Below are positions 1-18,698 of a DNA stretch of 18,698 nucleotides, one piece after another (within the stretch, counting starts at the first letter, position 1; the number at the start of each line of letters is the position of its first letter). The notes beneath the pieces were generated by a model that was not told the origin of the DNA, made no database searches, and saw only the letters and a list, made by a program, of their open reading frames with translations. The stretch comes from Lachnospiraceae bacterium Zagget3 (GTDB lineage: Bacteria; Bacillota_A; Clostridia; Lachnospirales; Lachnospiraceae). The position numbers and the translations under genes were made by a program. Location of the stretch: the NCBI GenBank assembly GCA_001941025.1, contig MSHE01000018.1, forward strand, positions 1-18,698, given 5' to 3'.

Positions 1-138
1 CAAAACAAAGACAGCCTCTAAACTGGCTATGTCGAAGCTGATGTTTGACTGTCTCCTGCAACCCAAAAACCTCCTGCGAATCCTTTCTCAAAATTGACTT
101 CCGTGAGTCCATAGACTGATCCTCCAGCCAACTTTTCC

Positions 139-167
139 TTGAAGTGCCGCCCGATCCATACTATAAT
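139..167 (+). promoter_or_regulatory. Sigma-A-type promoter of the two-component operon
   Basis: A -35 TTGAAG at 139-144 and a perfect -10 TATAAT at 162-167 are separated by 17 nt. The start codon of the response regulator lies about 80 nt downstream. The leader holds a small perfect hairpin (CAGACT, loop TCTCC, AGTCTG) near 186-202. I found no convincing LytTR direct-repeat box in 1-138, which otherwise shows no gene. Confidence 0.7.
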
Positions 168-249
168 AACAATAACGTCAAAAGCACAGACTTCTCCAGT
201 CTGGATGACACGCCGGCACAACCGTATTTCCGGAAGCAGGGTGAGAAAT

Positions 250-960: not shown

Positions 961-961
961 G

Positions 962-2281: not shown

Positions 2282-2306
2282 GGTTACGCCAATATTTGCA
2301 AGGTTA

Positions 2307-2341
2307 GGACACCTGGGTTGACCGGGTGTCCTTCTTTTTTT
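2307..2341 (+). terminator. Rho-independent terminator of the two-component operon
   Basis: A 10-bp stem (GGACACCTGG / CCGGGTGTCC, one G-U pair, loop GTTGA) is followed by TTC and a run of seven T. It ends the kinase transcript 26 nt after the stop codon and overlaps the promoter of the next gene. Confidence 0.85.
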
Positions 2342-2346
2342 ATAAT
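2318..2346 (+). promoter_or_regulatory. Promoter of the first GH3 gene, embedded in the terminator
   Basis: TTGACC (2318-2323) and TATAAT (2341-2346) lie exactly 17 nt apart. The -35 occupies the loop and descending arm of the terminator hairpin, and the T-tract forms the end of the spacer. The GH3 start codon is at 2395, with AAAGGAG as RBS. Confidence 0.7.
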
Positions 2347-2394
2347 GCAAACAGTTCCTTCCCAACCATACAACAACGAAAGGAGAAACGAAGC

Positions 2395-5538: not shown

Positions 5539-5632
5539 GTGCGCATCATAAGAAAAAAACCGCACTGTCGGTTCTATCCTGCCATTATCCCAAACTCCCT
5601 GCAGGATAAAATGCGACTGCTTCCCTAAAAAG

Positions 5633-5670
5633 CTTCCCCGGCAGCAACCGTTGCCGGGGAGGTTTTATTT
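5633..5670 (+). terminator. Terminator after the first GH3 gene
   Basis: Stem CTTCCCCGGCA / TGCCGGGGAGG (11 bp with one G-U pair), followed by TTTTATTT. It ends about 18 nt before the start codon of the second GH3 gene, leaving almost no room for a promoter and leader. Confidence 0.8.
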
Positions 5671-5688
5671 CTGACAGGCTACGCCCGG

Positions 5689-8607
5689 ATGGTGAACAGC
5701 TTTTTGAACGGATTCAACATCTCCGTGGACAACTCTGCTGTAGACACCACTGGCCTTGACCCGGACTACTACACTTCCGACTACACCGCCGAGACCATCA
5801 GCGACGCCGAGGACGCTCTGGCTAATCAGATCGCCGACGAGGGCATTGTCCTGCTGGAGAACAACGGCACCCTGCCCCTCAGCTCGGACACAGTGTACAG
5901 TCTGTTCAGCGTGAACAGCACCATCGTTGCCTCCTCTGACAGCCTGCTGGGCGGCCGCGACCTTCAAACCCTGTTTACTGAGGCGGGGGTCAGCATCAAC
6001 ACCACTCTGTGGGACTACTACACCGCCAAGGCCGGCGAGGGCTACGGTCTGGGCAGCGGCTCCATCAGCTACGGCGACGATGAGGACTTCTCCATCAACG
6101 AGGTTCCCCTCAGCGAGTTGGAGGCGGAGGACGGCCTGCTGGAGAGCGTGGAGGGCACCGTCCCCGTCTACTGGCTCAAGCGGGTAGCCGGCGAGGGCCG
6201 GGATATGCCCCGCTCCATGTACAACCACACCGACATTGAGGAGGACAAGAGCAAGAGCTATCTGGAGCCGGACTCCATCGAGTTGGAGATTCTCCAGTAC
6301 CTGAACGACAACTATGATGAGGTCATCCTGGTGGTGAACTCCAACGCAGCCCTGGAGCTGGGCTGGCTGGAGGACTATCCCAACATCACCGCCGTCCTCT
6401 ATGCCCCCGACGGCATTGAGTCCATCCCCCGCATCCTCACCGGCGAGGTGAACCCCTCCGGCCGGACGGTGGACACCTTCGCCGCCGACGCCCTGGCCTC
6501 TCCCGCCGCCCAGAACTTCGGCGACTATCAGTACACCGATGAGGACGGCAACATGACCGTCTACAACTACGTCTCCTATGAAGAGGGCATCTATGTGGGC
6601 TATAAGTACTACGAGACCCGCTATGAGGACGTGGTGCTGAATCAGGGCAACGCCGGGGATTACGATTATGACACCGAGGTGGTCTATCCCTTCGGCTACG
6701 GCCTGAGCTACACCACCTTCGAGTGGTCCAACATGACCACCACCTGGACGGACGATACCTGCACCGTCACCGTGGACGTGACCAACACCGGCGACGTGGC
6801 GGGCAAGGACGTGGTGGAGGTCTACATCCAGTCCCCCTACACCGAGTACGACATTGCAAACAGCGTGGAAAAGGCCTCCGTGGCTCTGGTGGGCTACGGC
6901 AAGACCAGCGAGCTGGAGCCGGGGGCCACCGAGACGGTGGAGGTCTCCTTCTCCCGGGAGCAGCTGAAATCCTATGACTACACCAACGCCCAGACCTATA
7001 TTCTGGACGCCGGGGACTACTACGTTACCGCCGCCGCCAACGCCCACGCCGCCGTGAACAACATCCTGGCCGCCAAGGGGGCAGACGTGGAGGGAGACGC
7101 CTCCTTTACCTCCCTGTATGTGGTGGAGGAGTTTGACGCCACCACCTACTCTGTGGACAGCTACAGCGGCGTGGAGATCACGAACCAGCTCTCCGATGCC
7201 CAGGGCGACGTCACCTACCTGACCCGGTCCGACTGGGTAGGCACCTTCCCCACCCATGACGGCGAAGTCAGCGACCAGGTCTCCACCTGGGGCAACGAGA
7301 TCAATGGCGAGGACGGCGTCTCCTACACCTACACCAAGGTGGCCAGCGACGAGCTGCTGGCCCAGCTGGAGAGCTTCGACTCCGGCAGCCCGGTGGACGC
7401 CTCCACCATTGACGTGGACATCGTCTATGGGGCGGACAACGGCCTGACCCTCATCAACCTCCGTGGCCTGGACTATGACGACCCCCTGTGGGACGATTTG
7501 CTGGATCAGCTCACCGCCGAGGACTATTACAACACCATCGCCCTCTCCGGCTACGGCGTGGAGGCCATCGAGAGCGTGGATAAGCCCTTCACCATCGACG
7601 CCGACACCGCCAACGGCCTGATTTACGGCGGCACCGGGAGATATTATCCCAACTCCATGACGCTGGCCCAGACCTGGAACCAGGAGCTGGCCCTGGAGTT
7701 TGGCACCATGATCGGCAACGAGGCCCTGTTGGGCGGCTGCAACGGCTGGTATGCCCCCTCCATGAACATCCACCGCACCCCCTTCTCCGGGCGGAACGGC
7801 GAGTACTACTCTGAGGACGCCTTCCTCTCCGGCGCTGTGGCCTCCAACGCCATCTACGGCGCGGCCACCAAGGGCGTGTACGCCTACATCAAGCACTTCG
7901 CCTTCAACGACCAGGAGAACCACCGGGGCGACCGGGACGGCCAGCACTCCATCGCTACCTGGCTCAACGAGCAGGCCGCCCGCGAGATTTATCTGGTGCC
8001 CTTCGAGATGTGTATGAAGGTGGGGGATGTGGAGCTGAACTACATCGCCCAGGATGAGGACGGCAGCCTCACCAACGCCACCACCACCATCCGGGCGGCC
8101 CAGGCGGTCATGACCGCCTTCAACCGGGTGGGGGCCACCTGGGCAGGCGGCGATTACGGGGTGCTCACCGGTATCCTCCGCACCGAGTGGGCGTTCGATG
8201 GCTTTGTGCTGACGGACAACGCCAACACCGGCGTGTTCATGGACGGCTACCAGATGACCGAGGCCGGCGGCGACGCCAAGCTGACCTATCTGGAGGAGGC
8301 CGCCCGGTACGACTTCGACGAGAACGACGAGGCCACCTACTATTACGCCCGTCAGGCCATGCACCACATCCTCTACACCATCGCCAACTCCAACGCCACG
8401 AACGGCCTGGCCCCCGGCGGCTCCTTCGTGGAGGGGATGCGCATCGTGGACAAAATCATCATCGGCGTGAACGTGGTCTGCATCCTGCTGATTCTCTGGA
8501 TCGCCTACACCATCTTCCGCACCTTCAAGCCCAGCAGGCGCAAGCTGGCCAAGCTGGAGCGCAAGGCGGCGAAGAAGGCCGCCAGAAAGGCCTCAAAGCA
8601 GGCATGA
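5689..8607 (+). CDS. Second reversed-order GH3 hydrolase, N-terminal anchor missing
   Basis: A 972-residue paralogue of the preceding enzyme with the same order: GH3_C (starts DEGIVLLENNGTLPL, about residue 48), Fn3-like (YPFGYGLSYTTFE, VTNTGDVAGKDVV), GH3 barrel with YAPSMNIHRTPFSGRNGEYY, KHF, and nucleophile D843 in GFVLTDNA, then a C-terminal helix (about 922-945) and a long Lys/Arg/Ala-rich tail. It begins at a point matching about residue 40 of its neighbour, just after the latter's signal anchor, so no export signal is present. The frame is open back to 5629 but has no better start codon. The ATG at 5689 has only a weak ACAGG upstream. As drawn, the catalytic part would stay inside the cell, which conflicts with the C-terminal anchor; the gene is probably 5'-truncated. 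Function beyond the GH3 family is unknown. Confidence 0.82.
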   Translation: MVNSFLNGFNISVDNSAVDTTGLDPDYYTSDYTAETISDAEDALANQIADEGIVLLENNGTLPLSSDTVYSLFSVNSTIVASSDSLLGGRDLQTLFTEAGVSINTTLWDYYTAKAGEGYGLGSGSISYGDDEDFSINEVPLSELEAEDGLLESVEGTVPVYWLKRVAGEGRDMPRSMYNHTDIEEDKSKSYLEPDSIELEILQYLNDNYDEVILVVNSNAALELGWLEDYPNITAVLYAPDGIESIPRILTGEVNPSGRTVDTFAADALASPAAQNFGDYQYTDEDGNMTVYNYVSYEEGIYVGYKYYETRYEDVVLNQGNAGDYDYDTEVVYPFGYGLSYTTFEWSNMTTTWTDDTCTVTVDVTNTGDVAGKDVVEVYIQSPYTEYDIANSVEKASVALVGYGKTSELEPGATETVEVSFSREQLKSYDYTNAQTYILDAGDYYVTAAANAHAAVNNILAAKGADVEGDASFTSLYVVEEFDATTYSVDSYSGVEITNQLSDAQGDVTYLTRSDWVGTFPTHDGEVSDQVSTWGNEINGEDGVSYTYTKVASDELLAQLESFDSGSPVDASTIDVDIVYGADNGLTLINLRGLDYDDPLWDDLLDQLTAEDYYNTIALSGYGVEAIESVDKPFTIDADTANGLIYGGTGRYYPNSMTLAQTWNQELALEFGTMIGNEALLGGCNGWYAPSMNIHRTPFSGRNGEYYSEDAFLSGAVASNAIYGAATKGVYAYIKHFAFNDQENHRGDRDGQHSIATWLNEQAAREIYLVPFEMCMKVGDVELNYIAQDEDGSLTNATTTIRAAQAVMTAFNRVGATWAGGDYGVLTGILRTEWAFDGFVLTDNANTGVFMDGYQMTEAGGDAKLTYLEEAARYDFDENDEATYYYARQAMHHILYTIANSNATNGLAPGGSFVEGMRIVDKIIIGVNVVCILLILWIAYTIFRTFKPSRRKLAKLERKAAKKAARKASKQA

Positions 8608-8645
8608 CGGCACATATCATTTGAGTTTCCCGCTTCCCAAAAATG

Positions 8646-8675
8646 GCTCCCCGGCGGCTACCGCTGCCGGGGAGC
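8646..8675 (+). terminator. Terminator-like hairpin after the second GH3 gene
   Basis: A perfect 10-bp stem GCTCCCCGGC / GCCGGGGAGC lies 38 nt after the stop codon. It has no T-tract, so termination may be weak. It closely resembles the hairpin after the first GH3 gene, as expected if gene and hairpin were duplicated together. Confidence 0.55.
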
Positions 8676-8857
8676 TTCGAGCATTCTGGTCGGTTAAAAC
8701 AGCATTAGGTCAGACATATTGCGGCAAGGCAATGTCTTTGTGCTACAAAGGCCCGCTGCGCTTGCCTTGTTGGGGGAATCCCCAAACCCCTTTTGAACAT
8801 CACCGGGGTGATGGACTGCGCATTCCTGCGGAACGCTTCCAACTCTATTCATAAAAA
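8676..8857. other. Gene-free stretch, origin unclear
   Basis: No convincing gene. A 77-codon frame crosses it (8621-8854) but starts inside the hairpin region, has no RBS and no family I can name. The stretch contains the compact inverted repeat GGGGGAATCCCC (near 8773-8784). Its style recalls noncoding tails seen near clostridial mobile elements, but I cannot confirm that from sequence alone. Confidence 0.3.
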
Positions 8858-8858
8858 G

Positions 8859-8892
8859 GAGAGAGCATCCCTTCTATGCCCTCTCTTTTTTT
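8859..8892 (+). terminator. Rho-independent terminator
   Basis: Stem GAGAGAGCAT / ATGCCCTCTC (10 bp, one A-C mismatch, loop CCCTTCT), followed by a run of seven T. It would stop any read-through from the GH3 pair. Confidence 0.75.
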
Positions 8893-8989
8893 ACACACGA
8901 TTGTAAGCGTCAAATCAAATAGCGTGTAGTGTGAATGCTAAAATGGACTTGAGCCATTAAAGCAAAAATGACAATGAACATTTTGAGTG

Positions 8990-9388
8990 TGTTTGTCAAA
9001 TAAAAATGTGAGCAAAAGGTCCCCCAAAAAGTGAGCACCTTCAGCACCTTATAGATTTTTTGGATTGCGCGAGCAGGGGCCAAACGCACACCTTTTGGAG
9101 AACTAACAGGTCGAACCCTTTCGCTCACATTTTGGAAGCCCAAAGTCCTTTTTTAGAAGGAGGCCCGCTACCGTTGCATGGACTGCGCAAGCCGATAGCT
9201 TTCACCGGAGAAAATCACAATGTGGCTGTGGTGAATCAGCCGGTCAACCAGGACCGCTGTCAGGCGGTTGTCTCCAAAAACCGTGTTCCACTGAGAGAAC
9301 TCCGGATTTGAGGTAATAATCAGGCTCTTGCGCTCGTAACAATCGGAGATTACCTGGAACAGCAGCTCAGCGGAGTCCTTGCCTACAG
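8990..9388 (-). mobile_element. Remnant of one end of an IS21-family element
   Basis: The segment holds the 3' end of an istB-like gene (minus strand) and, beyond its stop, IS21-style end repeats. GCTCAC(A)TTTT occurs at least three times: twice on the minus strand near 9004-9034 and once on the plus strand near 9122-9132. The outer end is placed at TGTTTGTCAAA (8990), an estimate. No istA and no second end are present, so the element cannot move by itself. Confidence 0.6.
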
Positions 9389-9389
9389 G
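9168..9389 (-). pseudogene. istB: istB-like IS21 helper ATPase, C-terminal fragment
   Basis: The minus strand encodes about 73 residues matching the last part of IstB: SAELLFQVISDCYERKS, then LIITSNPEFSQWNTVFGD, NRLTAVLVDRLIHHSH and a GESYRL ending, with a TAG stop. IstB is the AAA+ partner of the IstA transposase. The Walker A and B parts (about the first two thirds) are absent. There is no start codon in the homologous segment; the reading frame passes straight into the truncated ceramidase-like gene at about 9385-9389, which marks the recombination junction. It cannot be functional. The family call rests on motif recognition and is strong for this short piece. Confidence 0.88.
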
Positions 9390-9801
9390 CGGTGCGCAGC
9401 GCTTCCAGATGTGCGCGCACCATCAGGTTGTCCCGATTCATATACTGTCTGGCTGCTTCTTCCGATACCGGATTGCAGCTGTGCATATCATCCCGGTTCC
9501 AGTCCTCCAGGGAAGCCCATTCTTGGAAGTGAGGAGTTGCCAGCACATGGGTGGCATGAATCAGGATATGGTTCTCCGGTAGCTTCAGCTCCTTGGCGGC
9601 CTCCTTCAGCAGTTGCTCCCTGATTTTGAGTATAACGATGTCTACAGAGAGGATAGCGTATCCTTCGCCGCATTGCAATAACAGCACCTGGAGCATCGGG
9701 AGGTCGTGAACGTAATTGTATCCTTCTCCATAGGTTGGAAGCATTTCCTCAGTATAGCGGATCTCTGCCTTACCCGCCCCTGCGTATAATTCATTCATCA
9801 T
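9367..9801 (-). pseudogene. Ceramidase-like (neutral/alkaline type) protein, truncated
   Basis: A 144-codon frame that looks like the N-terminal third of a larger enzyme. It opens with AGAGKAEIRYTEEMLP, then VHDLPMLQVLLLQCGEGYAILSVDIV, and has a histidine-containing HATHVLATPH segment. This layout resembles the N-terminal domain of neutral/alkaline non-lysosomal ceramidase-type proteins, usually over 400 residues. Homology should end near the ALRTACRQ segment, where the DNA becomes istB; only three further codons follow before a stop, supplied by the istB region. The start ATG (9801, or 9798) has AGAAAGGGGGTC upstream. It lies downstream of the aldo/keto reductase on the same strand with a bidirectional hairpin between them, so it was probably once part of the same cluster. 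Family assignment is tentative; truncation is clearer. Confidence 0.6.
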
Positions 9802-9825
9802 TTTGACCCCCTTTCTGTGTCATTC

Positions 9826-9864
9826 AAAAGGAACTGCCCGGCACCCCGGACAGTTCCTTTTTTT
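9826..9864. terminator. Terminator hairpin between reductase and truncated gene
   Basis: A 14-bp stem AAGGAACTGCCCGG / CCGGACAGTTCCTT (one mismatch, loop CACCC). It has a T7 tract on the plus-strand side and TTCCTTTTG on the minus side, so it can act in both directions but is weaker for the minus-strand genes around it. Confidence 0.7.
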
Positions 9865-9880
9865 GGCCGTCGGCGACGGC

Positions 9881-10837
9881 TTATACGTTGTACAGCCAGT
9901 CCGCTTCTTCCGGCGTAAGGTTCAGCTCCGCCGCATCTAGGCTTTGCCCCAGCATCTCCGTATTCTCCGCGCCAACAATGGCGACCACAGGCAGCTTATT
10001 GTAAATGATATGGGCCAGCCCTACTGCGGGGATGGAAGCGTGCTTTTCCTCCGCCATCTGCTGAACCCGGGCCAGGCGCTTCATGTTCTCCGCAGAGCCG
10101 TAGGATTCCCGGAGGCTCGCAGGCATGGCGTCCAGCCCCTGAGCGGCTACCCGGGCAAAGAAGCCCTGGGCCTGGGAGCTGAAGGCAAAGACGGGGATGT
10201 GCTTCTCCTCATAATAGGCGTATTTGTCCGGGGTCATCATCAGGGAGCCGAACTGAACGAAGTACTTATCCTCCGATGCGGCCAGGGACATACCGATTTG
10301 GCTGCCGCCGATGATGTTGCTCCCCTTGCTTTCGGCGTACTCTACCGCCGCCTTCACGCGGCAGGTGTCGTAGTTGGAGACGCCCACCCGTCTGGCCTTG
10401 CCAGACTTCACGATGTCCTCCATGATGTCCACGATTTCCTCGATCGGCACCTCCGGGTCATCCTTGTGAATCCAGTACATATCCAGGTAGTCGGTATGCA
10501 GCACCTTCAGGCTTTGCTCCAGGTCGGCCATAATGCACGCCCGGTTGACTCGCTTCACATCGGGAGCACTCTGCATGGGATGGCCGCCCTTGGAGCAAAC
10601 CATCAGCCTGCTGCGGTTGCCCCGGGACTGGAGGTACTCGCCCACCATCTCCTCGGAGTGGCCGTCGCCGTAGGCTCTGGCTGTGTCGATAGTGTTGCCG
10701 CCCCGGTCGATGAAATAGTCATACAGCCGAAACTTTTCCTCCGTGGAGAGCATCTCCATGCTCATGGACGAACCCATGGCGATTCTGGAGAACTTCATGG
10801 CTTCGCCGTTCGCATCCTTCAATTCAATGTAAATCAT
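9881..10837 (-). CDS. Aldo/keto reductase
   Basis: A 318-residue cytoplasmic NAD(P)H-dependent oxidoreductase of the aldo/keto reductase superfamily. The catalytic tetrad is visible: D51 and Y56 in DTARAYGDG, K83 in CSKGG and H124 in YWIHKDD. The C-terminal cofactor-binding segment includes VVAIVGAENTEML. The start is the ATG at 10837 with AAGGAG about 10 nt upstream. It follows the GPH symporter by 69 nt on the same strand, with no terminator seen between, so the two are probably co-transcribed. In this setting it may oxidise or reduce the imported sugar or its keto/inosose form. Substrate cannot be read from the sequence. Length and motifs are normal for the family. Confidence 0.92.
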   Translation of the reverse strand: MIYIELKDANGEAMKFSRIAMGSSMSMEMLSTEEKFRLYDYFIDRGGNTIDTARAYGDGHSEEMVGEYLQSRGNRSRLMVCSKGGHPMQSAPDVKRVNRACIMADLEQSLKVLHTDYLDMYWIHKDDPEVPIEEIVDIMEDIVKSGKARRVGVSNYDTCRVKAAVEYAESKGSNIIGGSQIGMSLAASEDKYFVQFGSLMMTPDKYAYYEEKHIPVFAFSSQAQGFFARVAAQGLDAMPASLRESYGSAENMKRLARVQQMAEEKHASIPAVGLAHIIYNKLPVVAIVGAENTEMLGQSLDAAELNLTPEEADWLYNV

Positions 10838-10906
10838 AGCAGTATTCTCCTTATTTTATGGCGTTTCCGTATCAGTGTATCGTTATCATGGCGGGAAGGA
10901 TAAAAA

Positions 10907-12352
10907 TTACATTCCCTGCTCCTGACGGATCTTTTCCAGCTCCGGCTCAAACTCCTTGTGCTTCTTGTCCAGGTCATAGAAGCTCATGGCAACGAACATC
11001 AATGCCAGGCTAAGCAGAGGGAGGCCGCCCCATACGAAGCTGATGGCGCTCATGGCGGAGGCGGTCTGTGTCGCCGCGCCGCCGAGATAGCCGGAAGCGC
11101 CCAGAACGCCCGCAATCAGGGAACTGGCAACGCCGGAACCAATCTGGCAGGCCAGGGAGAAGCTGGCCATGATAACGCCGGCGTTGATGGTTCTCGTCTT
11201 AACCGTCAGCTCATCCACAATATCCGGCTGGGTGGACTGAATCATGCACCCAATAAAGCCGCTACCGAAGCCCGCAATCGCCATGCCGACAACCAGGATG
11301 AAGGCAACGCTGGGTGCCAGGAACCGCAGGGAAACGCCAACTGCCGTGATACCAATACCAATCAGCGCAATGGGACGCTTTCCCAGTTTGATGGCCATAG
11401 CAGGCACAACCAGAGGAGAAATCAGGCCGGCAACACTGTAAGAGGTCATTGCCAGGGCCATGATGGTGAAGTTGCCGTTCATCTGATAGGTGATGTAATA
11501 GACCATGGTGGACATCAGCGAGATAGTGTAGAACAGGTTGCCGAAGCAATACAGCAATTCCACGACAAAGTTCTTGGTGGTGATGTAAGTTACCAGGTTC
11601 TTCAGCAGGGAGCCATTGCTCTGGGGCTTCGCAGCCGCTTTTTCTGTCTGCTGCCCGGGGTTTTCCTGTGCTTTGGTTTCGGAGACTGCCGTATTGCCGG
11701 CGGCCGTCATGACGACCATGATTGCACCCAGGAGCAGGGCGGTGCGCAGATAGCCGACAGCGTCATTGGAAGCGCCCAGCAGCGCCACCAGAGGCGTCAC
11801 CACGCTGCCAATCACGCTGGTACCCAGGCCGCCGGTGATGCCCCGGACGGTGGCCAGCATATTCCGTTCCTTCGGGTCGGTAGTCATGAAGGTCATCAGA
11901 GAGCCTTCCGGGATGTTGACCATCGTCAGGCCGGTGGTGTAAATCACATAAGCAAAATAGGTGAAGGCCATGGTCGCTGCGATAGAGGAGCCGTCAAAGA
12001 GGGTCGCGGTTCCGAACAGCATCAGGAGGCCCGCCAGAAAGACAATGCAGCCGCCGTAAATCCAGGGACGGGCGCGGCCAATTTTGGTGTGCGTCCTGTC
12101 AACCAGGGCGCCGATGATGAAGTCACTGCAGGCATCGATTACCTTACAGACGAGAAACATCAGGCTAACCGCCGCTGCGGCCTTGGCGTAATTGGTTTCA
12201 TCCAGGCCGCCGAACACAATGTTCAGCAGGTATGCGGAAAGGTAGGTGTCCGCCAGGGACTGGGCGATTTGGCGGCCAAAGTCGATGGAGCCAAAGCCGA
12301 TTCTCTGCTTCCAGAGGGCCCCTCTGGAGAGGGAAATTGAAGTGTTTTCCAT
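10907..12352 (-). CDS. GPH-family (MelB-like) sugar:cation symporter
   Basis: A 481-residue polytopic membrane protein of the glycoside-pentoside-hexuronide:cation symporter family within the major facilitator superfamily. The family signature lies at about residues 70-97: KVIDACSDFIIGALVDRTHT followed by KIGRARPW. About 12 hydrophobic helices are present, with a long polar middle loop (around the KAQENPGQQTEKAAAKPQS segment). The start is the ATG at 12352, with GGAGG 7 nt upstream; a longer frame to 12409 adds 19 residues unlike the family. It is first in a minus-strand unit with the aldo/keto reductase, and divergent from the lysR gene. Its substrate is probably a sugar, glycoside or uronide, unidentified. 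Regulation by the adjacent LysR protein is likely given the shared motif over its -35. Confidence 0.93.
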   Translation of the reverse strand: MENTSISLSRGALWKQRIGFGSIDFGRQIAQSLADTYLSAYLLNIVFGGLDETNYAKAAAAVSLMFLVCKVIDACSDFIIGALVDRTHTKIGRARPWIYGGCIVFLAGLLMLFGTATLFDGSSIAATMAFTYFAYVIYTTGLTMVNIPEGSLMTFMTTDPKERNMLATVRGITGGLGTSVIGSVVTPLVALLGASNDAVGYLRTALLLGAIMVVMTAAGNTAVSETKAQENPGQQTEKAAAKPQSNGSLLKNLVTYITTKNFVVELLYCFGNLFYTISLMSTMVYYITYQMNGNFTIMALAMTSYSVAGLISPLVVPAMAIKLGKRPIALIGIGITAVGVSLRFLAPSVAFILVVGMAIAGFGSGFIGCMIQSTQPDIVDELTVKTRTINAGVIMASFSLACQIGSGVASSLIAGVLGASGYLGGAATQTASAMSAISFVWGGLPLLSLALMFVAMSFYDLDKKHKEFEPELEKIRQEQGM

Positions 12353-12431
12353 GTTGATTCCTCCATTTGTCATCAGGTATTTTTTCTTCAGGTTTTCGCT
12401 GAGACGCAAGCCGGCGTTTGCTTCTGATTAC

Positions 12432-12465
12432 AGAATACCCGTTTTACCGCCGTTCTGCAATTCCG
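12432..12465 (-). promoter_or_regulatory. Promoter of the symporter operon with LysR-type half-site
   Basis: On the minus strand, -35 TTGCAG (12455-12460) and -10 TATTCT (12432-12437) are 17 nt apart. The 9-mer CGGAATTGC (12457-12465) overlaps the -35. The same motif, in the same position, lies over the lactonase promoter. Confidence 0.6.
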
Positions 12466-12553
12466 TTTTAAAATGTGAAATCCCAAAATAGAATCGGAAC
12501 TGGCGGAGCAGGTTGCAGGAAAAGGCCCCGTTGCTGGTTTCTGCAAAAGCAAA

Positions 12554-12583
12554 TTGACACTTCTTGCGGGAATGTGCTATAAT
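12554..12583 (+). promoter_or_regulatory. Strong promoter of the lysR gene
   Basis: Consensus -35 TTGACA (12554-12559) and -10 TATAAT (12578-12583) with an 18-nt spacer and an extended -10 TGC. The start codon is 71 nt downstream, leaving room for the inverted repeat in the leader. Confidence 0.85.
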
Positions 12584-12608
12584 AAAGTTGCATTTCCTGT
12601 GGACAACG

Positions 12609-12638
12609 GGGAATTGCCGCAAGTCTGCCGCAATTCCC
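12609..12638. promoter_or_regulatory. Inverted-repeat operator candidate in the lysR leader
   Basis: A perfect 9-bp inverted repeat, GGGAATTGC (12609-12617) and GCAATTCCC (12630-12638), separated by 12 nt. It lies just after the lysR promoter. The core GGAATTGC is the motif found over the -35 of the two neighbouring enzyme operons, which suggests an autoregulatory binding site rather than only an RNA hairpin. Confidence 0.6.
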
Positions 12639-12654
12639 GGAAACGGAGGCGACC

Positions 12655-13560
12655 ATGAAGATCGAATACCTGGAAGAATTTGTCACCCTTGCGGATATGA
12701 AGTATTATCATACGGCGGCAGGCAAGCTGTTCATCTCTCAATCCGCCCTGTCCAAGCACATTCAGGCGCTGGAGGCATCTATGCACGTCCAGCTCTTTGA
12801 GCGGGGGGCCACCGGCGCAGTTTTGACACGCTACGGCCAGGAATTTTTACCCTATGCCCGAACGATCGTCAACCAGTATAAGGAGGGGAGCGACAAAATC
12901 AATCAAGAGGTTACCGGCTTTTCCACCTCGGTCTCTGTCGTTTCAGAATTTGACATTTTCCCGGATATACTGGAATTTTGTGCCGCCAATCCCTGCTATC
13001 GCATGACGTTTGAAGAAAAAATCGCGGCCAGTGCGGTCTGCTTGGATCTGGAATTAAACCACTCCGATTTGGCTGTCTTGCTGACCGGCGAAACCGAATA
13101 TTCCGAGTTCAACAGTTATCCATACATCAATGACCATTTTGTGGCGATTGTGCCGCAGACACACCGCCTGGCAGAACAGCAGCTGGTTTCCCTGTCCGAC
13201 CTCTCAGAGGACCGGTTCCTTCTGCCCACCAGAGACACCGCAGAGTACCACATCATCACAAAAACCTGCCAAAAGGCAGGCTATGAACCGAAGTCGGCAG
13301 GGAACGGCTTCACTTTTATGCAGCGTGTGATGATGACCGCAAGGGGGCTGGGCGTTTCCATTGTCCCCAAATACATCACCTTTCAAATGCACGACGGACT
13401 GTATCCCCAGGCGGCGCTGGACAGCATCTCGGTTCTGGAACTGAGCGCGGATATTCGGATTTACGCCAATCTCTATTTCCGGAAAACGGAGATCCTCCGG
13501 CCCGGCGCTGCGGCATTCCTGGAGTTCATTCGTCAGAAAGCTCAGAAAAGGCTGACTTGA
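12655..13560 (+). CDS. LysR-type transcriptional regulator
   Basis: A 301-residue LysR-family regulator. The winged-helix DNA-binding domain fills about residues 1-60 (YLEEFVTLADMKYYHTAAGK, then LFISQSALSKHIQALE, ending VQLFERGATGAVLT), followed by a linker helix and a periplasmic-binding-protein-like effector domain (about 90-295). The ATG at 12655 has GGAGG 7 nt upstream and gives a typical LysR N-terminus. It is divergent from the symporter operon and convergent with the hydrolase/lactonase operon, so it lies between the two units it probably controls. The effector is unknown; a sugar acid, lactone or related pathway intermediate is a reasonable guess. Its leader holds a GGGAATTGC inverted repeat, suggesting autoregulation. 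Confidence 0.93.
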   Translation: MKIEYLEEFVTLADMKYYHTAAGKLFISQSALSKHIQALEASMHVQLFERGATGAVLTRYGQEFLPYARTIVNQYKEGSDKINQEVTGFSTSVSVVSEFDIFPDILEFCAANPCYRMTFEEKIAASAVCLDLELNHSDLAVLLTGETEYSEFNSYPYINDHFVAIVPQTHRLAEQQLVSLSDLSEDRFLLPTRDTAEYHIITKTCQKAGYEPKSAGNGFTFMQRVMMTARGLGVSIVPKYITFQMHDGLYPQAALDSISVLELSADIRIYANLYFRKTEILRPGAAAFLEFIRQKAQKRLT

Positions 13561-13567
13561 CGGTTTT

Positions 13568-13596
13568 GGGCGGCGCCGTATCATACGGTGCCGCCC
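13568..13596. terminator. Bidirectional terminator hairpin between convergent genes
   Basis: A 13-bp stem GGGCGGCGCCGTA / TACGGTGCCGCCC with a TCA loop and one G-U pair, in the 41-nt gap between the lysR stop and the stop of the MBL-fold gene. T-tracts are weak on both sides, so termination relies on the strong stem. Confidence 0.7.
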
Positions 13597-13601
13597 TGAC
13601 T

Positions 13602-14429
13602 TTATCCTAAGATTGCCGGGTTATAGGTGATAGCCGCCCGGCCTGCGATGTGCTTTTTCTGATGGGGTACCGGGGAGATTGGATTGTATTCCTCGGTGTC
13701 GGCATCAGTCTGCCCTGCCGCAATCTCTCTGGCAGCTTGCATTTCATCCTGCATCAACTGATGGCTGACCGGTTCTGTACTGTGGCCGTGGTAGACGGTG
13801 GTGTCGGCGTGGATGACGCTGAGGAAGCGCTCGATTCCCTCTGCCATCTCCCGGAACTCAGCCAGACTTTTCAGGGAGGAGGCGGGTACATGGGTACTGA
13901 ATGCATCGCCGCTGAACACGATGTTGTCCCCGCGGTCATAAACCGCAATCTCTCCCTTGGAATGGCCGGGCAGCTTATAGATTTCCAGCGTAATGCCGCC
14001 CAGATCGAAGGAATCTCCCTCATCCACATTTTTGCTGTGGAAGCCGCCGCAATCCAGAATGTGTTCCCTGGCGTAGGCCAGGACTTCTTCGTTCCCGTGG
14101 GAGAACATCCCCGTGTCAAACAGCCGCTTTTCCGGAGCCAGACGGCCCACCTGATCCAGATCCCGCTCATTGAGATACACCTCATCGAACAGGACGGAAC
14201 CTGCAATGTGATCCGGGTGGCCGTGGGTGCAGATGCAGATGACCGGCTTATCTGTCAGCTTTTTGACCTCCTCGTAAACGCCGGGGCCGAACACTCCCAT
14301 GCCAGAGTCGATCAGTGCCGCTCTCTGAGTGCCGATGATCAACCCCATGACCAGAGAAGAATCCTCCGCATAATGCTCCTGAATCAGCCAAATATGGTCA
14401 TTCAGCTGCGTGTGAGAAAAGTATTCCAT
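13602..14429 (-). CDS. MBL-fold metallo-hydrolase
   Basis: A 275-residue cytoplasmic hydrolase of the metallo-beta-lactamase fold. The dinuclear metal-binding motif is present as H69, H71, D73, H74 in THGHPDH. Further ligands are likely in the LPGHSKGEI and VFSGDAFS segments and in VYHGHS near residue 230. The ATG at 14429 is chosen because AAGGAGG lies upstream; a frame extended to 14564 overlaps the lactonase gene and is unlike the family. It begins 13 nt after the lactonase stop, so the genes are co-transcribed and probably translationally coupled. Members of this fold hydrolyse lactones, thioesters and phosphoesters; pairing with a lactonase suggests a lactone or ester step, but the substrate is not determined. 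Confidence 0.9.
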   Translation of the reverse strand: MEYFSHTQLNDHIWLIQEHYAEDSSLVMGLIIGTQRAALIDSGMGVFGPGVYEEVKKLTDKPVICICTHGHPDHIAGSVLFDEVYLNERDLDQVGRLAPEKRLFDTGMFSHGNEEVLAYAREHILDCGGFHSKNVDEGDSFDLGGITLEIYKLPGHSKGEIAVYDRGDNIVFSGDAFSTHVPASSLKSLAEFREMAEGIERFLSVIHADTTVYHGHSTEPVSHQLMQDEMQAAREIAAGQTDADTEEYNPISPVPHQKKHIAGRAAITYNPAILG

Positions 14430-14442
14430 TGAAAATGCCTCC

Positions 14443-15561
14443 TTATCCTTCGTCAAACGTGATGCAGGCACAGCTGTCCACCCCAAAGCAATGGGGCGCA
14501 TAGCGCAGCGTGCCGTCCGGGAGAACCTCCCAAATCTCAACGCTGTTGTTGTCGTTCCCATCAAAGCAGAGGAAGCGCCCGTCAGGGGAGAAGGTCGCGC
14601 CCCGGGGAACCTTGGTGTTCAGGGAGGCCCTCTGCATCAGGGTGAGCCTCCCCGTCTCCTGGTTGACATCAAACACTATCACCATACCGATGCCCCGGAT
14701 GACATCATAAAGCCTTGTCTCGTCCCGGTTCAGCAGAATTTCAGACTGATTATCCTTCTGGCGGTTCATCTCATATCCCTTCGGCAAAACCGGGTAGTCT
14801 GCCACAAATTCCTTACGCTCATCTGCGACAAGGAACTGGGAAACCGCACCCTTGCTCTCGTAGTTGCAATACAGGTATGGCAGCTTCCTGGCAAAGACCT
14901 CGTGCCGGGGGCCTGCGCCCGGCTCACAGTCCAGCTTCCCCGGAACCGGAACCAGCTTGCCTTGCTCCCGGTCGATGCGGAAGAAGCCGATATACCCGCC
15001 GGTGAGGTTCCCGTAGGAGTAGATGTCCTGGGCCTCACTGTAGAACACCTTATGAACACAAGAAGCAAAATCCGGAGATGCCTGTGGCACCACCATGACG
15101 TCCAGCAGCTTGCCCGGCGTGCCGTCCTCGCCAATGTCAAACAGGTCGATCACGCACTCAGGAAACACCTTCCGGGAACCCCAGCTGCCGTCCGCCTCCT
15201 GCGTGACCTTGATGCAGGGATGGAACTCAATGGAAAAGTGAGCGACCAGCATCCAGCCGCTCTTTTCGTCAAAGACGATACCCGCCGGTTTGCAGCCCAG
15301 GGTACGCACCTCCGCCACTCTGTCCAACATCCCGGTTCGCCGGTCGATGCGGAAGGCAACGATCCTGCCACCGGGCGCTCCGTTTACCGTGTCCACCTCG
15401 TCTGTGGCGTACACCATGCCGTTCCTGGCCACCACACAGCCCGCATTCAAATCCGGCGCTGTGTGTCCTTTCGTGGTCATTGTTCCGCTTTTTTCATCAT
15501 ACTCCAGAATTGTGATTCCGTGGGTTCCCTCATAGTAGAATCCACCCGCATAGGCAAACAT
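14443..15561 (-). CDS. Seven-bladed beta-propeller lactonase family protein
   Basis: A 372-residue protein of the lactonase / 6-phosphogluconolactonase-like beta-propeller family. Signatures include GAGPRHEVF in the middle and PRGATFSPDGRFLCFDGNDN near the C-terminus, with repeated blade strands such as GRIVAFRIDRRTG, GYIGFFRIDREQGKL and MVIVFDVNQETGRL. No signal peptide is seen, so it is probably cytoplasmic. The ATG at 15561 has AAGGAGG about 9 nt upstream; a GTG at 15579 would place the RBS inside the gene. It is the first gene of a two-gene operon with the MBL-fold hydrolase. It probably hydrolyses or binds a sugar lactone in the same pathway as the reductase and symporter. True 6-phosphogluconolactonase activity cannot be assumed. 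Confidence 0.85.
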   Translation of the reverse strand: MFAYAGGFYYEGTHGITILEYDEKSGTMTTKGHTAPDLNAGCVVARNGMVYATDEVDTVNGAPGGRIVAFRIDRRTGMLDRVAEVRTLGCKPAGIVFDEKSGWMLVAHFSIEFHPCIKVTQEADGSWGSRKVFPECVIDLFDIGEDGTPGKLLDVMVVPQASPDFASCVHKVFYSEAQDIYSYGNLTGGYIGFFRIDREQGKLVPVPGKLDCEPGAGPRHEVFARKLPYLYCNYESKGAVSQFLVADERKEFVADYPVLPKGYEMNRQKDNQSEILLNRDETRLYDVIRGIGMVIVFDVNQETGRLTLMQRASLNTKVPRGATFSPDGRFLCFDGNDNNSVEIWEVLPDGTLRYAPHCFGVDSCACITFDEG

Positions 15562-15607
15562 AGAAAAGTCCTCCTTCACAGTTTTGTGAGCAATCGCTGT
15601 ATATCAA

Positions 15608-15641
15608 TATATAAAACATAATTGCCCTTTGCGCAATTCCG
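15608..15641 (-). promoter_or_regulatory. Promoter of the lactonase operon with LysR-type half-site
   Basis: On the minus strand, -35 TTGCGC (15631-15636) and -10 TATATA (15608-15613) are 17 nt apart. CGGAATTGC (15633-15641) overlaps the -35, and an inverted half-site gives AATTGC-N7-GCAATT (15620-15638). The start codon is 47 nt downstream. Confidence 0.6.
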
Positions 15642-15937
15642 ATTTGCCATTCTTTTTTCTTAAATGGAATGACAGCGGGGACAACGTTGGGTCTTGTTCC
15701 TGTGGCCAATCGGATAGACAGACCCGTTTCCTCACAGCGTAGGTATGAGCCACCGAACGGCACTGATTCACCGTGTTTCGAGTCAAGCATATTGTAGGCA
15801 AGCATGGTATACGGGCTATTCCTGCTTAGCGCCTAGCGGAGAGTTTTCTCTGATGCGCTTTTTTGTCCACTGAAAAATCGCATTTGTGTCTTTTCAGAAG
15901 TAGAGGGATATATCCCTTAACGATTGGAGGGACAGTG
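15642..15937. other. Gene-free stretch before the mobile-element remnant
   Basis: No gene is supported. A minus-strand frame (15530-15805) has protein-like composition in its first half but no RBS, and it overlaps the lactonase promoter and start. A perfect 14-bp palindrome AGGGATATATCCCT (15904-15917) sits just before the RBS of the next gene and could be an operator. Confidence 0.4.
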
Positions 15938-16346
15938 ATGACCAATGAACAGAAAATGATGATATCCGCTCTCCGTGTGGAAGGCAAGGGCTATGGCTCC
16001 ATTACCCGCAAGGTTGGGATTTCAGAAAATACAATAAAATCATTCTGCCGTAGGAGCGCACAGCAGCCGGAGCTGGTTCAGCAGGATATCACTGAACATA
16101 AATGCCTGTGCTGCGGTGTTCCCGTCAAGCAGAACCCAGGGCGCAAAGAGAAGAAGTTCTGCTCGGATAAGTGCCGGAATAAGTGGTAGAACGCCCATCC
16201 TGACCGGGTTGACCGCAGAGCAATGCGTGAAGTCACCTGCGCAAACTGCGGAAAAAACCTTCTCGGTTTACGGCAGTGCCGCCAGGAAGTATTGCTGTCA
16301 TGAGTGCTACATCGAGCATCGGTTTGGAGGCGGCGGCAATGAGTGA
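15938..16346 (+). pseudogene. HTH / zinc-ribbon regulator of a mobile element, inactivated
   Basis: An N-terminal helix-turn-helix (MTNEQKMMISALRVEGKGYG, then GISENTIKSFCRR) is followed by a Cys-rich zinc ribbon (CLCCGVPVKQNPGRKEKKFC, then SDKCRNKW). Intact relatives accompany SHOCT and serine recombinase genes in clostridial mobile elements and usually read NKWWN at this point. Here the second Trp codon is TAG (16187-16189). The frame then continues NAHPDRVDRRAMREVTCANC and shifts by one base at a run of six A (16252-16257); with five A it would read GKTFSVYGSAARKYCCHECY and end at 16346. So there are two lesions. The ATG at 15938 has GGAGG 7 nt upstream. The first 83 residues could still be made as a short protein containing the HTH. 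Confidence 0.75.
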
Positions 16347-16515
16347 GGAACAGATGAGGAATGAGAAGCTGTACCAGGCAACCACGAGCATGGTTAGGCT
16401 TATGCTGGAAAATGGTATCATAAATGAACAGGAGTATCGTCAGATTGATACAATATTTCTTGAGAAATACCGCCCTGTTTTCGGCACATTATTTTCGGAC
16501 ACACGCTTGACTTAA
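16339..16515 (+). CDS. Small SHOCT-domain protein
   Basis: A 58-residue protein with the short C-terminal-type SHOCT motif: LYQATTSMVRLMLENGIINE then EYRQIDTIFLEKYRP, ending near LFSDTRLT. Relatives lie between the HTH/zinc-ribbon gene and the recombinase genes of clostridial mobile elements, as here. The ATG at 16339 overlaps the end of the preceding pseudogene by 8 nt, with GGAGG upstream; longer in-frame starts have no RBS. It appears intact although both neighbours are broken. Its role in the element is not established. Confidence 0.75.
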   Translation: MSEEQMRNEKLYQATTSMVRLMLENGIINEQEYRQIDTIFLEKYRPVFGTLFSDTRLT

Positions 16516-16560
16516 GGGGCTTTTAGAGTGATGTATAGTAGCGGAAAGGAGCGTGATTTC

Positions 16561-16704
16561 ATGCCAAATTTAATAAAAATAGAAGCCGCTGCGCCTGCCA
16601 TTCCCGCAAGGAAACAGATAGCTCCGCATCCCGTTAATCCAGGCCGTGTAACGATCGCCCTGACCGCCAGCTTTCATGGCAGCGGCCTGCTGGATGTCGC
16701 TTAA
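16561..16704 (+). pseudogene. Serine recombinase, N-terminal stub only
   Basis: ATG at 16561 with AAGGAG 10 nt upstream. The first ~19 residues, MPNLIKIEAAAPAIPARKQ, match the leader of large serine recombinases from clostridial mobile elements, where a catalytic AAYARVS-type segment should follow. Instead the frame enters unrelated DNA, the antisense of the next gene, and stops at 16702-16704. The catalytic serine and all other domains are missing. The cut lies at about 16613-16619. Confidence 0.65.
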
Positions 16705-16815
16705 CCGGTCTATTTCATATTTGCGTCCATCTTCCCAGGTTATTATGCGAGGAAGCATTACCCCATCGCTGCGGAAGCTGACCACCACATCCACATACAC
16801 CTTAATACTATTCAT
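16570..16815 (-). pseudogene. Conserved small protein, C-terminus lost at junction
   Basis: An 81-codon frame beginning MNSIKVYVDVVVSFRSDG, with the start at 16815 (GGAGA upstream). The body (ITWEDGRKYEIDRLSDIQQA, then MKAGGQGDRYTAWINGMRSY and LF) resembles a family of ~80-90-residue clostridial proteins of unknown function, often near mobile-element or DNA-repair genes. Relatives usually continue after the SYLF-type motif with Tyr/Glu and a Trp-Phe-Val tail. Here the last ~13 residues (PCGNGRRSGFYFY) are antisense recombinase sequence, so the true C-terminus is gone. It starts 10 nt after the nuclease stop, as last gene of that operon. The family name is uncertain; the junction is well supported. 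Confidence 0.6.
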
Positions 16816-16825
16816 GGCATCTCCA

Positions 16826-17728
16826 TCACGGATTGCACCGTTTGCAAGGCTCATATCCCTGCGCAATTAAATCATCGCGGCTGCCTGTGTACTCCTGTCG
16901 ATTCCCCTCGCTGATCTGGTCTACGCTGGAACAGGTGGGGTAATGAAACTTCTTCCCGCTTGTGTTCAAAATATATGTCGTTTCTTCGGCGGAATCTTCC
17001 GTTGCGGCGGAATCATCTTCCCAGCTGTCTCCCGTGGCGTAATCAATCACCACACCCAGCTGCACGTTGTAGCAGTACACGTTGAAGAGGACGCCGTCCC
17101 CTTCGTCCTCCACCGACATGGCTTCCATCTGCACCCCGCTGGCGACAAGGTTGTCGCCAGCGAAAATCGCCGTGACCCGGTACAGGACATGGTTCTCTGT
17201 CTCCTGAACATAGTCAGCGACCAGGTTCTCAAAGGGCAGCATGCCCTCCACGTTCAGGTATCGGGTGCCGGTGATCAGGTTTTGTTCATTGGCATTTTCA
17301 GCTGTAAGCTGGTATCCAATCAGATGGCAGCGGTTGTAAAGATAGCTCCCGTCCACAAAGTCATACTGGACGCTATGCCAGCCGGTGGGTTTGACAGAGC
17401 TGATGTCGCCGCGCTCCTCCGTGGGCATCAGGTTGGTACCAACGTTGGCAAACGCTGCGCCACATCTGCCCAGCGCATCCAGTTCACTGTAACGCTCAAA
17501 CGATGTGGTTGTCAGGTCATCTTCCATGAATTCCGGCACATTGCCGTTGAGTTCCACATACGGGTCGCCTGAGTATGCCGGAAGATGAGCCAGGTCAATG
17601 ATTTCCTCAGCGACTGACGTTGATGCCTCAGAGAGAACGTCGCTGGTAGCCGGTTCGGCGCCACACCCGACCAGGAACGCAGCGATGAGGCAGCAAAGCG
17701 CAGCAATTTGCCGGAAGCTCTCTTTCAT
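16826..17728 (-). CDS. Lipoprotein DNA/RNA non-specific endonuclease
   Basis: A 300-residue nuclease of the DNA/RNA non-specific (EndA/NUC-like) family. The N-terminus is a lipoprotein signal (basic start, hydrophobic core, LVGC lipobox with C22), so it is probably anchored outside the membrane. The beta-beta-alpha-metal core includes YNRCHLIGYQL with catalytic H135 and NLITGTRYLNVEGMLPFEN. After a Glu/Asp-rich linker, the C-terminus (about 252-300) is an Ada-like metal-binding motif, with KKFHYPTCSS and GYEPCKRCNP (H262, C266, C295, C298). The ATG at 17728 has GGAGG 10 nt upstream and overlaps the previous stop as ATGA, so translation is coupled. Likely roles are digestion of extracellular DNA or defence; unproven. 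Confidence 0.9.
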   Translation of the reverse strand: MKESFRQIAALCCLIAAFLVGCGAEPATSDVLSEASTSVAEEIIDLAHLPAYSGDPYVELNGNVPEFMEDDLTTTSFERYSELDALGRCGAAFANVGTNLMPTEERGDISSVKPTGWHSVQYDFVDGSYLYNRCHLIGYQLTAENANEQNLITGTRYLNVEGMLPFENLVADYVQETENHVLYRVTAIFAGDNLVASGVQMEAMSVEDEGDGVLFNVYCYNVQLGVVIDYATGDSWEDDSAATEDSAEETTYILNTSGKKFHYPTCSSVDQISEGNRQEYTGSRDDLIAQGYEPCKRCNP

Positions 17729-18138
17729 CTGGTGTAGACCTCCATTGTGATTTTGTCGTGGGACGAACCCCGAAACTCCTCGGTAGACGTCAAGCGCCAT
17801 CCGTTGCCATGCACATCAATGTCGAAATAAAAATCACCCGGGTATTTACGGTTCCATTTGAACAAAATGATTTTCTCGACCCATTTCTCATATGGCGCAG
17901 CTGCAACATCTTCCACGAAGCAGTACTCCCCGGGGGCCGCTTCACTCAGGAACCGCTCATCCACATTTATTTGCGGAGCATCAGATTCTGAGAATTGCTT
18001 TTTCGTGTAATGGTTCATCCAGAGCCGGCTGTCGGCCGTCAGCGCAAGGACCCGCTGCCGCAGCACGCGATCCTGGCTCTGCCGCCGATGATGGAACATC
18101 ATGCCGTTTCTGTCATCTACAGCCGCTATTATCATCAT
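17725..18138 (-). CDS. Conserved hypothetical protein (sometimes labelled ribonuclease Z)
   Basis: A 137-residue cytoplasmic protein. The N-terminus MIIAAVDDRNGMMFHHRRQS, then QDRVLRQRVL, SRLWMNHYTKKQF, GEYCFVEDVA and the SSHDKITMEVYTR ending recall a family of clostridial proteins that is sometimes automatically named ribonuclease Z. I see no metallo-beta-lactamase HxHxDH motif, so I do not accept that name as function. The start at 18138 has GGAGG 9 nt upstream. Its stop codon overlaps the nuclease start (ATGA), so the two form a coupled pair. A role linked to the nuclease, such as control or protection, is possible but speculative. Confidence 0.75.
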   Translation of the reverse strand: MMIIAAVDDRNGMMFHHRRQSQDRVLRQRVLALTADSRLWMNHYTKKQFSESDAPQINVDERFLSEAAPGEYCFVEDVAAAPYEKWVEKIILFKWNRKYPGDFYFDIDVHGNGWRLTSTEEFRGSSHDKITMEVYTR

Positions 18139-18218
18139 TTTCAGTGTCCTCCAATGTTATAAATCAATTATCTGCATCGTGCTTTCGCAAAATTGGATGT
18201 CATCGGTGCGCCCAATAG

Positions 18219-18255
18219 GACAGGAGGCTGGCCAATCCATGGTCAGCCTCCTGTC
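18219..18255. terminator. Strong hairpin, probable terminator for minus-strand relic
   Basis: A 15-bp stem, GACAGGAGGCTGGCC / GGTCAGCCTCCTGTC with a 7-nt loop and one G-U pair. There is no T-tract on either side. It lies about 30 nt after the stop of the nuclease-tail relic on the minus strand, where a terminator would be expected. Confidence 0.5.
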
Positions 18256-18284
18256 TGCTTCGTAAATTTGAGGGTTACTGCCTG

Positions 18285-18320
18285 CTATGGTTTGCAAACC
18301 TTACATGGTTCATAGCCCTG
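18285..18320 (-). pseudogene. Ghost of an Ada-like nuclease C-terminus
   Basis: The minus strand reads AQGYEPCKVCKP and then stop, against AQGYEPCKRCNP and stop in the nuclease gene 1.5 kb away. The DNA differs mostly at third codon positions, which indicates a diverged coding relic and not a recent copy. Only 12 residues match and there is a stop 17 codons further upstream of them, so the rest is lost. Confidence 0.5.
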
Positions 18321-18358
18321 GGCAATTGCAATTGTAGCATCAATGTAAGGTTTTTGCA
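18293..18358. repeat. Inverted repeat around the nuclease-tail ghost
   Basis: TGCAAACCTTACAT (18293-18306) is inverted as ATGTAAGGTTT...GCA (18343-18358), with a 2-nt bulge and a 36-nt spacer. The left arm lies within a further palindrome GGTTTGCAAACC (18289-18300). Confidence 0.55.
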
Positions 18359-18508
18359 ATACTTGCTTTGAAGATTATGGCCAACGGCTAACTATGTTTA
18401 ACTCGTATACAACTTGACCATAACGTGAGCGCGGGCCATCCCTGCCGACAGCACCGCCCTGATGCAAGGCAGGAATCAGCTCATACCGCTTTCACGCAAC
18501 CTTTTTCC

Positions 18509-18537
18509 TTGACTACTTTTCGTTTGGCTGTTATACT
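18509..18537 (+). promoter_or_regulatory. Strong promoter of the final secreted-protein gene
   Basis: TTGACT (18509-18514) and TATACT (18532-18537) separated by 17 nt. The start codon at 18622 is 85 nt downstream, preceded by AGGAGG. Confidence 0.8.
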
Positions 18538-18621
18538 AATAAGTAACAAACTGATGCAGACTACAAACGGTGCGCATCGGGGCGCGTACCCGGCAAAATT
18601 TTTTACAGGAGGAAAAAGGGT

Positions 18622-18698
18622 ATGAAACACAGATGTAAACGGCTGACAGCCCTGCTGTTGGCGCTGGCCATGTGCCTGTCCATGCTGTCCGTCAGCGC
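18622..18698 (+). CDS. Secreted protein, N-terminus only (runs off window)
   Basis: The first 25 codons are visible. They form a classical Sec signal peptide: basic MKHRCKRL, hydrophobic ALLLALAMCLSMLS and VSA as a probable cleavage site. ACAGGAGG lies 9-10 nt before the ATG. The strong promoter upstream suggests good expression. Nothing of the mature protein is in the window, so its function cannot be stated. Confidence 0.85.
   Translation, partial: MKHRCKRLTALLLALAMCLSMLSVS

Follow-up and report, generated by a model that had tools for sequence, protein, structure and literature searches.

The subject of this analysis is the gene of a LysR-type transcriptional regulator (LTTR) together with its putative operators on an 18,698 nt stretch of DNA from Lachnospiraceae bacterium Zagget3 (contig MSHE01000018.1, positions 1 to 18,698), in the following referred to as the window. 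This lysR gene lies between an operon for a symporter and an aldo/keto reductase (operon 1) and an operon for a lactonase and an MBL-fold hydrolase (operon 2). It appears very likely that these genes belong to a LysR-type regulon of their own, limited to a narrow clostridial lineage, in which one and the same operator is placed upstream of both operons. The LysR protein itself would be the binder of these operators, as judged from the sequence comparisons described below. The initial annotation, in which a nine-nucleotide word in front of both operons had suggested a LysR regulon, holds in its main point and gains support from a second element that it had missed; its list of members is one gene too long.

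A shared two-armed element at the promoters of both operons

The word in question, CGGAATTGC, matches the window exactly at two places, 12457-12465 and 15633-15641, both on the minus strand. As had been proposed, both copies lie at the same offset to the -35 boxes of the symporter and the lactonase promoter, each of which has a 17-nt spacer. The start of the word 2 nt into the -35 is correct in plus-strand coordinates; read 5′ to 3′ on the minus strand, the word ends in TTGC, and with these four bases the -35 begins. Taken within the window alone this pair of copies is weak evidence, as the word was picked post hoc.

A second element, ATTCYRTTT, which is absent from the initial annotation, is located exactly 29 nt upstream of CGGAATTGC in all eight promoters compared. 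These are the symporter and lactonase promoters of four clusters, namely that of the window and the orthologous clusters L001, L002 and L010, with the lactonase promoter of L002 taken from locus L075. The promoters of the window and the proposed operators are:

12432..12460, minus strand: symporter promoter TTGCAG-17-TATTCT (-35 at 12460-12455, -10 at 12437-12432), with poor hexamers that are kept in 4/4 clusters
12457..12494, minus strand: symporter operator ATTCTATTT-N20-CGGAATTGC, with ATTCTATTT at 12494-12486, the left arm at about -69 to -61 and the right arm over the -35
15608..15636, minus strand: lactonase promoter TTGCGC-17-TATATA (-35 at 15636-15631, -10 at 15613-15608), with TTGC and TATATA kept in 4/4 clusters
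15633..15670, minus strand: lactonase operator ATTCCATTT-N20-CGGAATTGC, with ATTCCATTT at 15670-15662, in the same layout and kept in 4/4 clusters (fourth copy from L075)

When the upstream regions of the orthologous clusters were aligned, no cluster without the 9-mer was found. CGGAATTGC is invariant in all four symporter and all four lactonase promoters, which bears out the earlier claim of a match beyond chance, and ATTC..TTT is invariant at the same offset in 8/8 promoters. If the two promoter groups are slid along each other, offset 0 yields 7 of 9 invariant shared columns, while the best of 80 other offsets yields 5, and only 5 of 20,000 column permutations reach 7. For the promoter pair of the window alone, the observed agreement (8 of 9 positions) is reached by 19 of 5000 shuffles. 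In the intergenic region between symporter and lysR the longest invariant run (35 nt) contains CGGAATTGC, and a run of this length occurs in 10 of 20,000 permutations.

The two arms are inverted copies of each other and form a 35-bp interrupted palindrome, ATTC..TTT...AAA.CGGAAT, in which the AAA directly before CGGAATTGC is also common to both promoter groups. This dyad is the top long-dyad centre for the two groups jointly (0.84 and 0.75 of pairs), and in the three relatives the reverse complement of the symporter operator deviates from the pattern at one scored position. If the start sites are predicted from the -10 boxes, with transcription beginning about 7 nt further on, the centre of the left arm would fall at -65 and the right arm over the -35, and in 8/8 promoters these positions would fit those of the recognition and activation elements of an LTTR.

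Three further readings were set aside. Duplication of a promoter as origin of the common word does not fit, as the two promoters of the window are identical at only 22 of 60 upstream positions (62 of 5000 shuffles reach 22). A short 13-bp dyad finds no support as common operator: centred at -22, it reaches 0.31 of pairs for the symporter promoters and 0.81 for those of the lactonase, and three other centres have higher scores for both groups together. A downstream half-site GCAATT in the lactonase promoter is not conserved, reading CCAATT, CCAATT and CAAATT in the three relatives.

Distribution of the composite element in related genomes

In each of the three genomes, precisely two sites match the composite ATTCYRTTT-N20-CGGAATTGC perfectly, one at the symporter and one at the lactonase promoter, while the bare 9-mer occurs in 21, 22 and 26 copies (reversed control: 3, 5 and 4). 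With up to three mismatches, 26 places were found in the three genomes, of which six are the perfect ones and three are at the lysR leader; the rest are either reverse-strand readings of the same operators or isolated, scattered places. The other two-mismatch site of genome G003 (C100) lies in a 3 kb locus (L082) without any homologue of a window protein. As perfect composites sit only at two promoters per genome, the regulon appears to be small and to comprise two operons and, probably, lysR itself.

Among 198 related genomes the perfect composite is present in three, which are the same three that carry this lysR, and in none of the other 195. Orthologues of lysR (E <= 1e-40), of the lactonase (E <= 1e-40) and of the symporter (E <= 1e-80) were each found in these three genomes only. 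Composites with one mismatch occur in six other genomes, with one match each, compared to three genomes in the reversed control. Six stretches of viral contigs contain the exact composite, none of them together with a homologue of a window protein at E <= 1e-5.

The lysR promoter and leader

Unlike the two target promoters, neither of which was listed by a scan for consensus promoters, the promoter of lysR matches the consensus completely. The features of this region are:

12554..12583, plus strand: lysR promoter TTGACA-18-TATAAT with a TG before the -10, 12/12 consensus positions, both hexamers in 4/4 clusters
12609..12638: inverted repeat GGGAATTGC-N12-GCAATTCCC in the lysR leader, arms at 12609-12617 and 12630-12638, exact in the window, L002 and L010
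12630..12667, minus strand: putative third, weaker operator copy ATTCGATCT-N20-GGGAATTGC across leader and start codon of lysR, left arm with one to two mismatches at the 29-nt offset in 4/4 clusters

The inverted repeat had been described in the initial annotation, and its 9-bp arms with a spacer of 12 are indeed present; it is weaker than had been claimed, since in one of three relatives (L001) the downstream arm is kept but the upstream arm is changed and the spacer is shorter. The simplest reading of the leader copy is that of a probable autoregulatory operator. Its left arm overlaps coding bases of lysR and is thus partly constrained by the protein. As 139 of 37,380 window positions are within two mismatches of the left-arm consensus, a partner at exactly the 29-nt offset would be unlikely to arise by chance, which is suggestive but not conclusive.

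It is also conceivable, although we consider it doubtful, that the inverted repeat acts as an RNA hairpin controlling stability or translation instead of being an operator, an idea which concerns the leader only and is compatible with the proposed regulon. Eight outer stem pairs can form in 4/4 sequences, and one changed base in L001 still pairs, with G-U replacing A-U. However, the ninth pair and two inner ones are each disrupted in one sequence, none of the pairs shows changes in both partners, and the folding is ordinary (z -1.25, with 25 of 200 shuffles equally stable). Moreover, no Rfam match at gathering scores was obtained, and the downstream arm is the same word as at the promoter sites, with a partner arm at 29 nt.

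Points against the proposed regulon and alternative explanations

Several observations weigh against a regulon of the kind proposed here. Only four clusters could be compared, all of them closely related, and shared ancestry accounts for part of their conservation. The longest invariant run of the lactonase promoter also holds CGGAATTGC but is unexceptional (3208 of 20,000 permutations), and four of the nine bases of CGGAATTGC, TTGC, could be kept as part of the -35 rather than of an operator. The lysR gene of L002 (6002-6897; genome G002) is split into two frames with a stop, due to recent decay or a sequencing error, while the promoters keep both operator arms. Beyond the close relatives, the sequences aligned from upstream of lysR at four of the 68 distant loci (L003-L006, 32-35% identity) contained only two matches with three mismatches, both in L004. 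Finally, no T-N9-A, T-N10-A or T-N11-A pair common to all eight promoters was found; a T-N12-A is common to all of them at two positions outside the arms, and a T-N11-A at index -28 is present in 4/4 lactonase promoters and in 1/4 symporter promoters (that of the window).

It is possible, but rather improbable, that the LysR-type regulator treats the whole 35-bp palindrome, which extends from about -69 to -35, as a single operator whose most conserved half covers the -35 box itself, without anchoring on a T-N11-A dyad near -65, and that the same operator silences the regulator's own gene from leader and start codon.

It is unlikely that the shared element is read by a sigma factor dedicated to it or by a different regulator with its gene outside the cluster, and that lysR controls something else. 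LysR is a putative binder, the eight promoters do not share a classical T-N11-A box, and the 9-mer includes four -35 bases, all of which would agree with such an unrelated factor. Yet in three genomes perfect composites are confined to the two operons of the lysR cluster, and none of the 198 relatives has one without also having this lysR, while a global regulator or sigma factor should show more sites. Furthermore, the weaker copy in the leader has no -10 placed so as to make it a -35.

It is very improbable that CGGAATTGC recurs at two -35 boxes purely by chance and has no regulatory meaning, an idea that the comparison of orthologues refutes in the main. The word was chosen post hoc, two of 200 shuffles of the window reach two copies (mean 0.19) and one-mismatch copies are at chance level (5 matches vs 5.47 expected), the last being a further point against the proposed regulon, but CGGAATTGC is invariant in 8/8 promoters, the second element has a fixed spacing, and two perfect composites are present per genome with none in the other 195 relatives.

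Genes of the cluster and their conservation

The proposed regulon comprises the following genes:

12655..13560, plus strand: LysR-type regulator, 301 aa, divergent from the symporter gene; HTH_1 and LysR_substrate domains, both above the Pfam cut-offs; orthologues 85-91% identical
10907..12352, minus strand: GPH/MFS symporter, first gene of operon 1; Pfam MFS_2
9881..10837, minus strand: aldo/keto reductase (akr), last gene of operon 1; assigned by Pfam; 94-99% identity in L001, L002 and L010; stable hairpin shortly after the stop in 4/4 clusters
14443..15561, minus strand: seven-bladed beta-propeller lactonase, first gene of operon 2; PF10282
13602..14429, minus strand: MBL-fold hydrolase, second gene of operon 2; PF00753; 13 nt gap to the lactonase gene

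The symporter scores 220 bits against the GPH model, slightly below the cut-off of 231.35. CidR, GltC and AlsR are among the best NCBIfam scores of the LysR protein, yet these (111.5, 100.2 and 88 bits) fall far below the equivalog cut-offs of 415, 350 and 430, and the protein is therefore none of these three regulators, whose target genes differ from those of the present cluster. Searches against solved structures yielded only distant relatives, which play no part in the interpretation.

Protein searches revealed four close LysR relatives (86-91% identical, one of them partial), the next one being 35% identical. A pattern scan of genome contigs gave 71 loci, of which three are orthologous (L001, L002 and L010; 86-90%) and the other 68 reach at most 48%, often in partial segments. 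The arrangement of akr and symporter gene divergent from lysR, together with the MBL hydrolase-lactonase pair, is kept in L001 and L010; in L002 the first part is kept, the contig ends there, and the lactonase gene is found on another contig (L075). The gap between the lactonase and MBL hydrolase genes is 12-13 nt in the window, L001 and L010. In the window and the three relatives the regulator gene adjoins, and is divergent from, a target operon, and lysR is the only regulator within the conserved five-gene cluster (according to Pfam, with the flanking genes of the relatives being unannotated).

Among the more distant loci, LysR relatives (27-35%) adjoin a lactonase homologue in L003-L005 and both a lactonase and an MBL homologue in L023 and L025, and in L007-L009 they are divergent from a GPH-type transporter. 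As these neighbours of LysR recur in distant loci, the association of the genes is wider than that of the operator. In the nine of the 68 distant loci that were scanned for exact GGAATTGC (L003-L009, L023 and L025), those copies that were found have no left arm at 29 nt, as judged by eye.

Members of the proposed regulon and the ceramidase-like open reading frame

The initial annotation had listed the symporter, the aldo/keto reductase, a ceramidase-like protein, the lactonase, the MBL hydrolase and the regulator itself as likely members. Symporter, reductase, lactonase and MBL hydrolase share the cis-element across the two operons and the regulator is a probable member owing to the weaker leader copy, but the ceramidase-like gene has to be removed, as a hairpin follows the reductase gene and the open reading frame (ORF) was not found beside the cluster in the relatives. 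The hairpin after the akr stop is present in 4/4 clusters (folds with z -6.5, -6.6, -2.2 and -3.0) and suggests that transcription terminates there. A simple terminator scan did not report the akr hairpin of the window, as in the predicted fold its short T run is base-paired to an A run ahead of the stem.

No match to the ceramidase-like ORF at E <= 1e-10 was obtained in L001, L002 and L010, which extend about 5.3, 3.2 and 5.1 kb beyond akr. A relative with 77% identity is encoded on another contig of G002, and those of G001 and G003 reach at most 38%. The ORF has no Pfam match, 'ceramidase-like' being the label of the initial annotation. A C-terminal piece of an IS21 IstB protein (window 9168-9395, minus strand) runs straight into the truncated ceramidase-like ORF (9367-9801, minus strand), and this junction is either an insertion remnant or an assembly junction.

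Further features were observed in the surroundings of the cluster. A pair of a LytTR response regulator and a GHKL histidine kinase (window 139-2281, plus strand) is located upstream of genes for two large GH3 proteins (2326-5538 and 5689-8607, plus strand), in both of which the C-terminal GH3 domain of Pfam precedes the N-terminal one, i.e., the domain order is reversed. A GH3 homologue is also located just upstream of the lactonase gene in L075 of G002 (2085-3038), on the other strand; in the window, GH3 genes are near the cluster as well.

Proposed regulation and comparison with known LysR-type regulators

Under the proposed regulation, LysR would be made from its consensus-strong promoter and would bind the 35-bp interrupted palindrome, ATTCYRTTT ... 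AAANCGGAAT, then TGC, upstream of both operons, with one arm near -65 and the other overlapping the -35 of promoters with poor hexamers. Effector-bound LysR would then most likely contact RNA polymerase at the -35 and activate both operons together, while the weaker copy in the leader and at the start codon of lysR would probably give autorepression. A strong promoter of lysR and poor promoters of its targets are what is commonly seen where an activator controls its targets and limits expression from its own promoter (PMC8407307, PMC4834489), and activation rather than repression of both operons is the mode that we infer. The cluster may serve the uptake and processing of a sugar-derived lactone or glycoside.

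In typical LTTR regulons, the regulator recognises a site near -65, activates from another one at the -35 and represses its own gene (PMC8407307, PMC4834489). The present system resembles them in its protein domains, its divergent gene order, an element that would lie near -65 by the predicted start sites and a second one over the -35, as well as in poor target promoters and a strong own promoter with a putative site nearby. It differs from them in that what both promoters have in common is a 35-bp interrupted palindrome and not a T-N11-A box, and in that the probable autoregulatory site is downstream of the lysR promoter, in leader and start codon. The ThnR system (PMC4834489) is similar to the proposed one in that one LTTR acts on more than one promoter; unlike the two activated promoters there, which are divergent neighbours, the second operon of the present system is about 3 kb away, beyond lysR. 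Within the limited collection of literature searched, neither an account joining LysR, glycoside-pentoside-hexuronide and lactonase nor a LysR regulon with ATTCC and phylogenetic footprinting was found.

The proposed regulon is well supported; in kind, it is ordinary LTTR biology and part of normal bacterial gene control. The comparison converts a word spotted by eye into an operator that can be tested and has defined arms, defined spacing and a short list of targets, i.e., two operons plus probable autoregulation. It also ties the symporter, the reductase, the lactonase and the MBL hydrolase into one co-regulated unit, the substrate of which would become approachable via the effector of its regulator.

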